Assembly (NCBI GenBank): GCA_030431775.1
Contig: JAUIHW010000032.1
Span: 1 to 45,477, forward strand
Source: Gammaproteobacteria bacterium
GTDB taxonomy: Bacteria; Pseudomonadota; Gammaproteobacteria; Pseudomonadales; JAUIET01
Reading direction: 5' to 3'
Length of the DNA stretch: 45,477 bases
How positions within the stretch are numbered: the first letter of the stretch is position 1; every line of letters starts with the position of its first letter. The position numbers and the translations under genes are program-made. This document shows positions 14,174-20,830 of this stretch, piece by piece. The notes below the pieces were generated by a model, which saw nothing but the letters and a program-made list of their open reading frames with translations, did no database searches and was not told the origin of the DNA.

Positions 14174-15082
14174 TTACTCGGAAGGAGGCGCTTGATACGC
14201 ATGACCCCAAACATCGCCTACCGTTGATACGGTGGGCGTGAAAGTGTTCCAGTCCAGCTGCAAGCCGTCATAACCGTACTCCACGGCAATACCCCCGGGG
14301 GCAATGACGTAGAAGCTCAGCATATTGTCGTTGCAGTGGCGCCCCAGTGAGGCCATCAGAGGGAGACCAGCTGCGTTTACCCGATCCAAACAGCTGCCAA
14401 CCTCATCGATACTGCCTACCTCCAGCATCATATGGATGCAGCCTACCGGGCTTGGCCCGTTGAATAATGCCAGACTGTGGTGACGGGGGTTATCTGCATG
14501 CATAAAAAGCACCCGCATCTCGGGAGCGCCTTCAGCCGGCGCGGGCAATCGGAGGTCGTCGCTGTCGCCAAAACCAAGCACTTCTTTATAAAAATTGTGA
14601 GTTTCTTCAATGTCTGGCGCTGGTAATACCACATGCCCCATGCCCATATCGCGAGTAATAAAACGCTCAATACCCTGAGGCGATTCGAAATCACAGGCGC
14701 ATTCCTCAGGCAGTGTTCGGCCATGGTAGATTTCCAGTGTGTTGCCGGCTGGGTCCTGCAAACGCACAAACTCGCTGACACAGCGTTCGGACGCTTCCGC
14801 GTCTGAGCCGTTCGAATACTGAACGCCTGATTTTGTGAGTTGTTCAAGGATCTCCAGGTAGGCTGCAGCAGAGGCCATTTCCCAACCACTGGCCAGCAAG
14901 CGGTCTTCGCCATTTGCGCTGACCATGATACGAAATGGCGCGTCGTCGGCTTTTAGGAAAGAGCTGTTGCTGTAGTCGCTCCGCTCTACTGCCATGAGGC
15001 CCAGAATGTCGACGCCGAACGATTTCCAGGCGCCGGCTTGTTGTTCGCTGATGTGCAGGTAGCCAAGATTTGCAACTGGCAT
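14174..15082 (-). CDS. Two-domain extradiol ring-cleavage dioxygenase (BphC/VOC family)
   Basis: 302-residue type I extradiol dioxygenase with two vicinal-oxygen-chelate domains (about 1-135 and 145-290). Such enzymes use Fe(II) and O2 to cleave catechols next to the hydroxyls, as BphC and HsaC do. All expected residues are present compared with BphC of LB400: iron ligands His150, His217, Glu268; active-site His202, His249 and Tyr258. The first domain carries no metal set, as in the family. ATG start with AAGGA seven bases upstream. No other ring-degradation gene is adjacent, so the substrate cannot be given. Active enzyme very likely. Confidence 0.88.
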   Translation of the reverse strand: MPVANLGYLHISEQQAGAWKSFGVDILGLMAVERSDYSNSSFLKADDAPFRIMVSANGEDRLLASGWEMASAAAYLEILEQLTKSGVQYSNGSDAEASERCVSEFVRLQDPAGNTLEIYHGRTLPEECACDFESPQGIERFITRDMGMGHVVLPAPDIEETHNFYKEVLGFGDSDDLRLPAPAEGAPEMRVLFMHADNPRHHSLALFNGPSPVGCIHMMLEVGSIDEVGSCLDRVNAAGLPLMASLGRHCNDNMLSFYVIAPGGIAVEYGYDGLQLDWNTFTPTVSTVGDVWGHAYQAPPSE

Positions 15083-17533: not shown

Positions 17534-18010
17534 ATGTCGCAGCGACCATTTCGGGTCCTTGGAGTTCAGCAGATTGCCGTTGGTGGGCAGGACAAAGGCG
17601 CCTTAAAAAAATTCTGGGTTGATATGCTGGGTTTGCAATACAGCAGCACCTATCGCAGCGAAAAAGAAAATGTTGATGAAGACATTTGTCAAATCGGGGT
17701 CGGTGCAGCAACCGTCGAGCTTGACTTGATGCAGCCGTTAGATCCGGAAAAACGACCGAAGGTTCATGAGCCTGCCCTTAACCACATTGGCCTATGGGTG
17801 GATAATTTGCCGGCGGCAGTTGAATGGCTGGAACAGCAGGGTGTGCGTTTTACGCCAGGTGGTATTCGCGCTGGAGCGGCGGGTCATGACGTATGTTTCA
17901 TCCATCCTAAAGGCAATGAACAGGCCCCAATCGGTGCCGAGGGTGTCCTTTTGGAGTTGGTGCAAGCGCCCGAAAGCGTCATTAGCGCGTTTGCCGAACT
18001 GGGGGCTTAA
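17534..18010 (+). CDS. VOC family protein, glyoxalase I/methylmalonyl-CoA epimerase-like
   Basis: 158-residue single-chain vicinal-oxygen-chelate enzyme with two beta-alpha-beta-beta-beta units. The metal ligands appear to be Gln13 (VQQIAV), Glu62 (ATVELDL), His84 (LNHIGLWV) and Glu141 (GVLLELV). The Gln/Glu/His/Glu set matches human-type glyoxalase I rather than methylmalonyl-CoA epimerase (His/Gln/His/Glu), although the overall look is epimerase-like. A GTG four codons earlier is possible, but the ATG at 17534 has GGAG at good spacing. Eleven bases upstream of the first ABC1 kinase gene, so probably one operon. Substrate uncertain. Confidence 0.78.
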
Positions 18011-18021
18011 GTAGCCGATTG

Positions 18022-19464
18022 ATGGCCAAGAAAAAGCCGCGTGGCAGGAAAAGCCCCACGGAACATTCGGCTCTGCAACGCGGCCTTGGCGTGTCTTTGG
18101 CAGGAGTAAAAGCAGGTACAGCAATTGCTTGGGGTGATTTACGGCGGCGTCTGGGATCGGATTCACCCGAGCACGAGCGCAGCGCACTGCTGCGGCGTGA
18201 AGCCGAACAGTTTGTTGTAGAGCTTGGTCGTCTTAAAGGCAGCTACGTCAAGATCGGGCAATTACTTTCAGAGTTTGGTGAGCATTTGCTGCCAGAGGAG
18301 CTAACTGAAGCTCTGCAAATGCTAAATTCTGAGACTGAACCTCTGCCGTGGGAGAGTGTTCAGCAGGCCGTACAGGTAGCAATACGTGGCCATGAAACGC
18401 GCGTTGAGATTGAAGAGCATGCCTTTGCAGCTGCTTCGCTGGCGCAGGTTCATCGTGCTACATGGCGAGCACCTCGCCGTCGTGCGCAGACCATCTGCTT
18501 AAAAGTACTTTATCCGGGCTTGCTCGATACGATCGATGCGGACTTTAACCATGTCGTTCGCATGCTCCAATTTGGGCGCTTTCTACCCGCTGGGCGTCAG
18601 TTCAACAGCTGGCTTGAAGCCATGCGCGAGCAACTGCGTCTTGAGACGGACTATCGTCACGAGCTGCAGATGATGCAGAGCGTTGCAACGCTGGTGACAC
18701 AGCTCTGCGAAACCAGCCCAGCTCTGGAGCCTGGCCGTCTTGCGCTGCCGCTGCCTATCGAGCAATTCTGTACCGACAAGGTCATGGCAATGGAATATGT
18801 GGTGGGCTATCGAGTGGGCGATTCGTTTGTGCAACAATTGTCGCAGCGCCGGCGCAATGCATTGGCAAAAGCCATGCTTGAGCTCTTTTTCGCCGAGGTG
18901 TACTCCTGGGGCGTTATCCAGACCGATCCCAATTTTGGAAACTACCTGATTAAACCGAGCCAGCAATTGCGTGGTGATGGCGCCGAGCCCGACCAACTGG
19001 TATTACTCGATTTCGGTGCCGTTCGACGACCGTCAGAAGAGTTCATCGAACACTTGCGTGCTGCTATCTATCATGGCCTGTTCGGGGAAACCCGTGCTTT
19101 GGAGCAGGCATTGATCGGCATGGGTTGTCTGCGGGAGGACAGTGGTGCCAGCGCGCGAAAGACCTTTTGTGATTTTTGCCGTGCTATTCTCGAGCCATTA
19201 CGCCCAGCCGAGCAGCTGCCAAGCGAATACCTGAATGCCTCTGGCCAGTACCAATGGGCGCATTCTGAATTGATTAAACGGGTGGGTAAGCTCGGTGCAG
19301 CTGCCAGTCTGAATCACCAGTTCAGTTTGCCTGCTGTGGAATTCACGCTGGTGGCCAGAAAATTGATTGGTGTATTTACATTTCTGGCCGTTCTGGGGGC
19401 TGAGTTCAACGGTCACGACATCGCCTGGCGTTACACTCGCGCCTGGCAAAAGACAGCAGGTTGA
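18022..19464 (+). CDS. ABC1/UbiB-family atypical kinase, first of a tandem pair
   Basis: 480 residues of the ABC1 (ADCK/UbiB) protein-kinase-like family, which influences isoprenoid lipid and ubiquinone metabolism through ATP binding or hydrolysis. Seen: a basic start (MAKKKPRGRK), the family-defining K77-x-G-Q80 in YVKIGQ, Ala-rich loop AAASLAQVH (137-144), Lys161 in ICLKVLYPG, the LETDYRHE motif, the catalytic loop TDPNFGNY (301-308), and the metal site D330FG. It lacks the C-terminal membrane helices of UbiB and is shorter (UbiB about 545), so it is probably not the housekeeping UbiB. The start is an ATG directly after an in-frame TTG; ribosome site weak. Four bases separate it from the second kinase. 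Confidence 0.88.
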   Translation: MAKKKPRGRKSPTEHSALQRGLGVSLAGVKAGTAIAWGDLRRRLGSDSPEHERSALLRREAEQFVVELGRLKGSYVKIGQLLSEFGEHLLPEELTEALQMLNSETEPLPWESVQQAVQVAIRGHETRVEIEEHAFAAASLAQVHRATWRAPRRRAQTICLKVLYPGLLDTIDADFNHVVRMLQFGRFLPAGRQFNSWLEAMREQLRLETDYRHELQMMQSVATLVTQLCETSPALEPGRLALPLPIEQFCTDKVMAMEYVVGYRVGDSFVQQLSQRRRNALAKAMLELFFAEVYSWGVIQTDPNFGNYLIKPSQQLRGDGAEPDQLVLLDFGAVRRPSEEFIEHLRAAIYHGLFGETRALEQALIGMGCLREDSGASARKTFCDFCRAILEPLRPAEQLPSEYLNASGQYQWAHSELIKRVGKLGAAASLNHQFSLPAVEFTLVARKLIGVFTFLAVLGAEFNGHDIAWRYTRAWQKTAG

Positions 19465-19468
19465 CGCA

Positions 19469-20797
19469 ATGGCGGCAAAAAAGCATCGAAAAGTGCCGAC
19501 CGGAAGAGTCAATCGATTGGGCCGGGTTGCCGGCCTGGCGGGCAGTCTGGCTGGTGGAATGCTCGCGGAAGGCGTGCGTAAAGTCCGGGCCGGTGAAGGA
19601 TTCAAGGCCGGGGATTTATTATTGACCCCAGCCAATGCCCGGCGGGTTGCTGACGAGCTGGCCAATATGCGCGGTGCGGCCATGAAGCTTGGCCAGATTC
19701 TATCGATGGATACTGGCGAGTTGCTGCCACCGGAATGGACGGAGGTGTTAGCCAGACTGCGCTCTGACGCCGACGCAATGCCTCCGTTGCAGCTGGAAGC
19801 TCAGCTCGAATCGGCGTTAGGCGATGAGTGGCCAGAGTTGTTGTATGACTTTCAATATGCGCCAATCGCCTCAGCATCCATAGGCCAGGTTCACCGGGCT
19901 ATTGGACCGGACGGTAAGCCGGTTGCGTTGAAGATTCAATACCCCGGTATAGCAACCAGTATTAACTCTGACGTGGACAATATTGCCTCGGTACTGCGTT
20001 TAAGTGGGGTATTGCCAGACGGTATTGATATTCAACCACTGCTTGACGAAGTCAAAGTGCAGTTACGTGACGAGGCGGACTATCGAATTGAAGCCGGCTT
20101 TTTGCAAGACTATTCACGCAGGCTTGCAGGCGATGAGCGCTTCGCTGTGCCGGTCCTCTATGAGGAGCTTTCCGGGGAAACGGTGTTGTGCATGGAGTTC
20201 ATGGCGGGCGACCCGGTAGAGTCTGCTGTGCAACAAGGTGCACGCGAGGCCAGCCGTGTCATGGAAGCATTGATCGACTTGATGTTTATAGAGTTGTTTG
20301 ACTGGAATATGGTCCAGACCGACCCCAATTTTGCGAACTATTTATATCGGCCGGATAACGGAAACATTGTTCTGCTGGATTTTGGTGCAACTCGGCGCTT
20401 CAAGCGCAGTTTTGTCAACCAATACAAGCGTCTCGCCAAAGCAGCCTTGGACGGAGACCGTTCGGCAATGGTAAAGGCCGCAGAGAAGCTGGGTTATCTG
20501 GGCAAGAATGTCGCCTCTGAGGTCAGAGAGGGGCTGCTCGACATCTTTGAAATCGGTGCTGAGCCGATGCTGCTTGATGAGCCTTATGATTTTGCATCAT
20601 CGGACCTGCCAGGACGCATTCAGGAAGCTGGCCTGGCTTTACAGGTGCTCATTCAGCGGGACAACCGCGGCTGGCACAACCCGCCGGTGGATGCGATGTA
20701 TTTTCATCGCAAAATCGGCGGAATGTTCATGCTGGCCGATCGTATGGGCGCCTCGGTCAATGTTCACCGCATTGTGAAAGCTTACATCGACGCCTGA
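19469..20797 (+). CDS. ABC1/UbiB-family atypical kinase, second of a tandem pair
   Basis: 442 residues, same family as its upstream neighbour but clearly diverged. Seen: basic start MAAKKHRKVPTGRVNRLGR, a Gly/Ala-rich hinge, K73-x-G-Q76 in MKLGQIL, the ASASIGQVHRA loop (135-144), Lys155 in VALKIQYPG, DEADYRIEAG, the catalytic loop TDPNFANY (284-291), and D304FG. No membrane segments. The frame runs upstream inside the first kinase gene, but the ATG at 19469, four bases after its stop, gives the normal family N-terminus. Together with the VOC gene these form a three-gene unit; a complex of the two kinases is an inference. Confidence 0.9.
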   Translation: MAAKKHRKVPTGRVNRLGRVAGLAGSLAGGMLAEGVRKVRAGEGFKAGDLLLTPANARRVADELANMRGAAMKLGQILSMDTGELLPPEWTEVLARLRSDADAMPPLQLEAQLESALGDEWPELLYDFQYAPIASASIGQVHRAIGPDGKPVALKIQYPGIATSINSDVDNIASVLRLSGVLPDGIDIQPLLDEVKVQLRDEADYRIEAGFLQDYSRRLAGDERFAVPVLYEELSGETVLCMEFMAGDPVESAVQQGAREASRVMEALIDLMFIELFDWNMVQTDPNFANYLYRPDNGNIVLLDFGATRRFKRSFVNQYKRLAKAALDGDRSAMVKAAEKLGYLGKNVASEVREGLLDIFEIGAEPMLLDEPYDFASSDLPGRIQEAGLALQVLIQRDNRGWHNPPVDAMYFHRKIGGMFMLADRMGASVNVHRIVKAYIDA

Positions 20798-20810: not shown

Positions 20811-20830
20811 ATCATTGAGAATCATTCTCG
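20811..20830. promoter_or_regulatory. Fur box upstream of feoA
   Basis: TGAGAATCATTCTCG (20816-20830) is a 7-1-7 inverted repeat of the Fur type. The 19 bases from 20811 agree with the classic Fur consensus at about 13 positions. It ends 13 bases before the feoA ATG, so iron-bound Fur would block transcription or its start. Confidence 0.85.

Follow-up and report, generated by a model that had tools for sequence, protein, structure and literature searches.

The window analyzed here is a stretch of 45,477 nucleotides (positions 1 to 45,477 of the forward strand of contig JAUIHW010000032.1, assembly GCA_030431775.1) from a gammaproteobacterium of the order Pseudomonadales. It carries two adjacent genes that code for proteins of the ABC1 family, ABC1-a and ABC1-b, preceded by a gene for a vicinal oxygen chelate (VOC) protein. 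Eleven bases lie between the VOC stop (18010) and the ATG of ABC1-a (18022), and four between the stop of ABC1-a (19464) and the ATG of ABC1-b (19469), which agrees with the spacing given in a preliminary description of this DNA. That description treated the three genes as one operon. The real unit is, however, the ABC1-a/ABC1-b pair. Its two closely spaced tandem frames are anciently separate, are predicted to be COQ8-like, and are conserved as a tandem through Halieaceae and the window's genus. The features of the locus are listed in Table 1.

Table 1. Genes, motifs and other features of the window that are referred to in the text.
Feature	Position	Strand	Details
VOC (Glyoxalase_4) protein	17534-18010	+	158 amino acids; Pfam PF13669, 114.6 bits
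ABC1-a, putative COQ8-like atypical kinase/ATPase, QTDPNFGN clade	18022-19464	+	480 amino acids; PF03109, 137.4 bits
ABC1-a KxGQ motif (KIGQ, residues 77-80)	18250-18261	+	
ABC1-a alanine-rich loop (AAAS, residues 136-139)	18427-18438	+	identical in 24 of 24 alignment rows
ABC1-a catalytic loop (QTDPNFGN, residues 300-307)	18919-18942	+	
ABC1-a DFG (residues 330-332)	19009-19017	+	identical in 24 of 24 alignment rows
ABC1-b, putative COQ8-like atypical kinase/ATPase, QTDPNFAN clade	19469-20797	+	442 amino acids; PF03109, 197.1 bits
ABC1-b KxGQ motif (KLGQ, residues 73-76)	19685-19696	+	
ABC1-b alanine-rich loop (ASAS, residues 134-137)	19868-19879	+	
ABC1-b catalytic loop (QTDPNFAN, residues 283-290)	20315-20338	+	
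ABC1-b DFG (residues 304-306)	20378-20386	+	identical in 24 of 24 alignment rows
HsaC/BphC-like extradiol dioxygenase	14174-15082	-	275 bits, below the HsaC cut-off of 450
13-base perfect palindrome GAGAATCATTCTC, Fur-box-like, ahead of feoA	20817-20829	+	
CYP125-like P450	24560-25819	-	338.8 bits to an entry named CYP125MRCA

The two kinases share 29% identity, and both score above the curated cut-off of PF03109 (22.9 bits). Their nearest solved relatives by sequence are COQ8B and COQ8A, weakly for ABC1-a (COQ8B, 1.2e-25) and strongly for ABC1-b (COQ8B, 1.9e-81). The AlphaFold models (mean predicted local distance difference test score about 82 each) have COQ8A as their best fold match, with Z 34.8, a root-mean-square deviation (rmsd) of 3.0 and 376 aligned residues for ABC1-a, and Z 39.3, rmsd 2.3, 372 aligned residues and 34% identity for ABC1-b. 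These values come from a re-comparison of Foldseek matches, in which non-ABC1 kinases score far under ABC1 entries. By best solved relative in sequence and in modelled fold, both proteins are thus predicted to belong to the COQ8-like subgroup; the label comes from these pairwise comparisons, COQ8 itself not being among the rows of the kinase tree described below. Neither protein reaches the UbiB equivalog model TIGR01982 (100.6 and 133.3 bits for ABC1-a and ABC1-b, cut-off 487.55) or the MABP-1 model NF050082 (82 and 146.4 bits, cut-off 800).

The preliminary description had noted complete catalytic motifs in both kinases, and KxGQ, the alanine-rich loop, the ATP-binding lysine, QTDPNF(G/A)N and DFG were all found. 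Their conservation was judged in two chosen alignments of 24 rows, one per kinase. The catalytic motifs are conserved in both, with KxGQ of ABC1-a present in at least 90% of the rows and not invariant, so neither kinase looks like a pseudokinase. C-terminal membrane helices are a feature of UbiB, and both kinases had been described as lacking them. By a hydropathy scan over 19 residues, which is not a topology prediction, this holds for ABC1-b, which peaks at 1.24, and is borderline for ABC1-a, which peaks at 1.77 (residues 441-459, with an arginine and a lysine within). The UbiB protein of the same genome has a C-terminal stretch with a hydropathy of 2.08. The further statement that ABC1 proteins normally occur singly was too strong. 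The window's genome has three full-length ABC1 domains (a UbiB-like gene on contig C50 and the tandem pair) and three further partial matches, which are weak and barely above the cut-off. ABC1-a as query also has several matches each in many genomes of the order.

ABC1-a was used as query against named bacterial genomes, which gave 94 relatives. The best 80 loci of these 94 were kept, each anchored on ABC1-a, and by manual count 56 of them are titled Halieaceae or one of its genera (two loci, L173 and L175, are from one assembly). ABC1-b lies directly downstream of ABC1-a in 66 of the 80, four of the 66 being cut within ABC1-b. In five of the 14 loci without a tandem (L128, L155, L167, L179 and L193), the contig ends at the gene or shortly after it, which leaves 75 testable named loci, 66 of them with the tandem. 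Haliea salexigens and Luminiphilus syltensis are examples of cultured Halieaceae with the tandem. Counts of tandems and of the dehydrogenase genes described below are from tblastn and not from the first gene-order maps, which were made with a greedy open reading frame (ORF) caller and lost genes in L116, L117 and L140. With the window included, a possible ABC1-b start lies within 20 bases of the ABC1-a stop in 66 of 67 tandems, and in 22 of the 67 the two frames overlap by 4 bases when the nearest start is taken; these figures are biased to short gaps because the nearest possible start was picked. The ABC1-a frame at L165:8891-11380 is open over 829 amino acids, which may reflect a fusion with the upstream gene or an overlong frame.

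The preliminary description had proposed a tree as a check on whether the kinases are recent duplicates, and they are not. In a tree of 88 rows, chosen from 181 prepared, ABC1-a and ABC1-b form separate groups (support 92 and 96, respectively, in the Shimodaira-Hasegawa-like approximate likelihood ratio test). These are two deep clades, each including single-gene relatives of its own, and the window and its genus mate (L115) pair together in both. Recent duplication is thereby ruled out. A third ABC1 clade occurs in the order, with HGDPHAGN replacing QTDPNFxN (L052, L053, L055 and L056). The root among the three clades is unsettled because the sole outgroup row, UbiB, sits on a very long branch. 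Among titles and abstract openings in the literature, no publication on tandem bacterial ABC1 genes or on ABC1 genes with acyl-CoA dehydrogenases was found. The tandem is an ancient arrangement inside a known family, and no description of it was found at that level of the literature.

The VOC gene does not share this conservation. In a sample of 145 genomes of the order, VOC relatives (E-value 1e-10) occur in 12. They lie beside ABC1 genes in only two of these, the genome of the window and its single genus mate, which has the same gene order. Nine VOC loci were fetched from the ten others, and no ABC1 gene was found within the retrieved stretches; in the tenth genome (G097), none of the listed ABC1 matches is on the contig of the VOC gene. 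Among the 80 named loci, a VOC gene lies beside ABC1 in one, that of the genus mate. Among the genomes searched, the three genes thus stay together in this genus only, and gene order rules out the trio as a conserved unit. The VOC gene is best explained as a neighbour by chance or at genus level. It had also been suggested that an ABC1 hetero-complex acts on a compound that the VOC enzyme makes or modifies. This is favoured by the short gaps in the window and by the identical gene order in the genus mate, but gene order has already largely refuted it, and we regard it as very improbable indeed. Neighbouring genes lend indirect support to a substrate of isoprenoid or lipid-like nature; its production by the VOC enzyme is unsupported. 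With this partner discarded, its place is taken by an acyl-CoA dehydrogenase and an Atu-like context.

A two-subunit acyl-CoA dehydrogenase, and not the VOC protein, is the commonest partner of the pair. Its small subunit is encoded at most 400 bases upstream of ABC1-a in 46 of the 80 named loci, and the large subunit precedes the small one in all 44 of these 46 where the contig extends far enough. The best solved relatives of the subunits are both chains of one enzyme, Tcur3483 and Tcur3481 (6wy8). The subunits also resemble the PimC/PimD and IpdE2 models, scoring far under the cut-offs. Of the loci, 33 have a gene for a third dehydrogenase and 37 one for a glutathione transferase. The latter directly precedes ABC1-a in eight loci (seven with the tandem), with no dehydrogenase found in the stretch. 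The dehydrogenase genes of three loci (L133, L142 and L194) are separated from the pair by genes for biotin carboxylase and AtuA. Of these three, L133 alone has an identified carboxyltransferase gene; the stretches of L142 and L194 break off at contig ends. In the other 77 loci no AtuA is in line with the pair, by ORF clusters from the greedy caller, so that the counts of AtuA and biotin carboxylase may be low. The same dehydrogenase is found by AtuA-like and carboxylase genes in genomes of other families that lack the pair (L198 and L200). A gene for wax ester synthase/DGAT is convergently oriented downstream in 21 of the 80 named loci.

The window's genus encodes the dehydrogenase pair at a separate locus, on contig C57 in G000 and on contig C2 in G001; relative to the L125 proteins, the two subunits have 73% and 55% identity in the former and 72% and 59% in the latter. 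Any link between it and the kinases there would therefore be in trans. The locus on G001 contig C2 (L196) also codes for an AMP-binding enzyme, a luciferase-like oxidoreductase, another dehydrogenase, a short-chain dehydrogenase/reductase and an APH-type phosphotransferase, a gene set that could be a 4-hydroxyacyl-CoA route. G021 contig C9 (L199) has the dehydrogenase pair and, about 7.5 kb away from it, another ABC1 gene (33% identity to ABC1-b) that neighbours a TetR regulator gene. In the window itself, the ABC1 pair is followed by feoAB. The Fur-box-like palindrome before feoA (Table 1) suggests that feoAB forms a unit of its own. The full Fur consensus has 19 bases, and no match to it with up to three mismatches was found before feoA. 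Scans for promoters and terminators gave nothing above chance level.

The pairing is frequent and not universal. Nine named loci have a truly single ABC1-a. Two of these (L121 and L161) are contigs of G053 and G114, and these genomes code for ABC1-b elsewhere. Seven genomes of such loci were searched, some of them incomplete drafts, and no ABC1-b was found in any. In the 145 genomes of the order, counted by reading of match lists, ABC1-a types occur in 49, ABC1-b types in 15 and both in nine, and the two are adjacent in five of the nine. Six of the 15 genomes with ABC1-b show no ABC1-a. A putative hetero-complex of the two kinases can thus not be obligatory in all genomes, given that all seven searched genomes with ABC1-a lacked a detectable ABC1-b and that six of the 15 had ABC1-b without its partner. 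In a sample of 369 genomes of the class (E-value 1e-60), ABC1-b has a match in 23 and ABC1-a in nine, the window's genome being among both; in G198, G330 and G437, a single gene answers both queries. None of these 369 genomes shows a tandem outside the order; in the three f189 genomes, both genes are present and lie apart.

What the pair might do is suggested by analogy with COQ8. COQ8 is described as an ATPase that is stimulated by coenzyme Q (CoQ) intermediates and cardiolipin; its proposed role is either the extraction of hydrophobic precursors or the organization of the enzymes (PMC8346625, PMC7615680). Addition of COQ8B and ATP is reported to raise CoQ1 output about fivefold, with phosphorylated CoQ intermediates undetected (PMC7615680). 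AtuA and AtuC/F are involved in the use of acyclic terpenes (PMC4847356). As the pair shares the COQ8 fold and its catalytic residues and frequently has branched acyl-CoA enzymes as neighbours, lipid handling would be the simplest reading. We tentatively propose, aware that this may well prove wrong, that the pair is an ATP-driven system that serves the catabolism of hydrophobic isoprenoid-type acyl compounds. Each kinase would use ATP at the membrane face, and this would move or present a hydrophobic isoprenoid-type lipid or regulate its handling. The pair would thereby serve soluble enzymes that degrade branched (isoprenoid or sterol side-chain-like) acyl-CoA compounds, with ABC1-a and ABC1-b acting as partners or as opposed regulators. 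It is tempting to go further and to picture a dedicated two-protein COQ8-type ATPase system, encoded in operons of marine Halieaceae, that delivers membrane-embedded isoprenoid or sterol-derived compounds to the two-subunit dehydrogenase and an Atu-like carboxylase/lyase route. This more specific version is doubtful.

Several observations weigh against the proposal. Association across the 145 genomes was assessed in seven tests, with uncorrected p values and uncontrolled genome size. ABC1-a and ABC1-b are associated by genome (9/49 vs 6/96, p 0.04) and not by family (p 0.71). The large dehydrogenase subunit is not associated with ABC1-a (p 0.31 by genome, 1 by family), and with ABC1-b it is so by genome (p 0.011) and not by family (p 0.27). 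Genes like hsaC are commoner in genomes with ABC1-a (24/49 vs 18/96, p 0.00023), but this too is lost by family (p 0.57). Over 34 loci, the distance correlation between ABC1-a and ABC1-b (0.888) is barely above that between ABC1-a and the large subunit (0.875), and the partial correlations are 0.44 and 0.51, respectively. The correlation of the two kinases thus speaks for co-inheritance, not for interaction. A mirror-tree proof of a complex was not obtained, the correlation being no stronger than with the neighbours. One genome (G105) has the pair without a dehydrogenase orthologue and another (G076) has the dehydrogenase without the pair, so the coupling is loose. An adjacent dehydrogenase is also absent from 19 of the 49 named tandem loci with more than 2.7 kb upstream, in three of them because AtuA and carboxylase genes intervene. 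Finally, COQ8B is reported to have phosphorylated the enzyme COQ3 (PMC7615680), so that the pair may phosphorylate proteins instead of handling lipids.

Steroids are one possible substrate class, and steroid degraders have been isolated from Halieaceae (PMC5790920). The window codes for an HsaC/BphC-like dioxygenase and a P450, both at matching places in the genus mate. Among solved structures, the P450 is closest to CYP125, a steroid C26 monooxygenase; three further relatives (E-value 1e-90) are found in the same genome. A second HsaC-like gene of this genome is on contig C57, which also carries the dehydrogenase pair. In favour of the proposed catabolic role, CYP125-like genes are commoner in genomes with ABC1-a (17/49 vs 5/96; by family 8/20 vs 2/27, p 0.011) and in those with ABC1-b (7/15 vs 15/130; by family 5/8 vs 5/39, p 0.0067). 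HsaC-like genes are not linked to ABC1-b (p 0.37 by genome, 0.44 by family), and none of the 145 genomes passes the HsaC cut-off. Apart from the locus of the genus mate, the named loci (79) yielded neither the dioxygenase nor the P450 gene (E-value 1e-40, 33% identity). A reading restricted to steroids was dropped, for want of any genome above the HsaC cut-off, of a family-level HsaC link and of these genes in the 79 loci. In two genomes of one family, an HsaC-like gene lies about 4 kb from a single ABC1-a-type gene (L085 on G112 contig C522, and G139 contig C30).

Other functions can be envisaged for the pair. It might control the amount or placement of ubiquinone, its members acting with opposite signs as yeast Cqd1 and Cqd2 do, on behalf of the many acyl-CoA dehydrogenases that feed the quinone pool. 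Both kinases are COQ8-like in sequence and predicted fold, they are extra since the genome has a UbiB-like gene besides, and opposing proteins of the UbiB family are known in yeast (PMC8346625). No quinone gene is, however, among the identified neighbour genes (many neighbours have no identification), and many genomes tolerate one kinase alone, so that we place this reading on the unlikely side. The pair might also act on wax ester or triacylglycerol bodies, as proposed for ABC1 proteins of plastoglobules and cyanobacteria. An ABC1 kinase of Nostoc has been proposed as a lipid-droplet protein (PMC7660261), and ABC1K1 is reported to affect the placement of plastoquinone between plastoglobules and thylakoid (PMC11613423). 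The wax ester synthase/DGAT gene downstream would fit, but it is convergently oriented and restricted to part of the clade, and the window has feoAB after the pair instead. A role in lipid storage is improbable to us.

One of the kinases could instead phosphorylate a hydroxyacyl-CoA, with the dehydrogenase pair removing the phosphate, similar to ACAD10/ACAD11. Kinase-fold genes do adjoin acyl-CoA dehydrogenases in these loci. The kinase domains of ACAD10 and ACAD11 are, however, of the APH type and not of the ABC1 type, and both kinases of the pair keep the KxGQ motif, which hinders kinase action in trans. ACAD10 and ACAD11 are reported to unite such activities (PMC11342911), but the undetected phosphorylated intermediates of COQ8B (PMC7615680) are a further point against a small-molecule kinase, which we consider quite improbable.

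If the proposed catabolic role of the pair is true, the ABC1 family, known for isoprenoid quinones in biosynthesis, would have been paired and put to catabolism in marine Halieaceae. The action of COQ8-type proteins on lipids is hard to study in mitochondria. A co-inherited bacterial pair, often located beside catabolic enzymes with a definable substrate class, offers a simple growth phenotype and could allow lipid handling to be told apart from quinone biosynthesis. Close relatives without one member, such as three Parahaliea genomes in which no ABC1-b was found, are natural knock-outs.

Among known systems, COQ8A/COQ8B (ADCK3/4) share with the pair the fold (from approximately residue 55 onwards), KxGQ, the alanine-rich loop, a QTDPN-type loop and DFG. 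The pair differs in that it is bacterial, in tandem, split into two separate clades and often has catabolic gene neighbours; by the hydropathy scan, ABC1-b also lacks a strong hydrophobic stretch, ABC1-a being borderline. The UbiB protein of the same genome shares the PF03109 domain, but it has a HADMHPGN catalytic loop and a hydrophobic C-terminus, and the pair scores under the UbiB cut-off. MABP-1/Rv3197 and MSMEG_1954 share the fold (Z 20.8 to 28.4), whereas the pair is far under the cut-off for MABP-1, for which a macrolide-binding role has been reported. Yeast Cqd1 and Cqd2 are likewise described as two UbiB-family proteins in one process (PMC8346625). They do not form an operon, and the likeness is by description. 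The description of the Atu clusters names atuABCDEFGH, with no ABC1 gene among them (PMC4847356). Two of the loci share genes with such clusters: the array that contains the pair also codes for carboxylase subunits, AtuA and acyl-CoA dehydrogenases in L133, and for biotin carboxylase, AtuA and dehydrogenases in L194.

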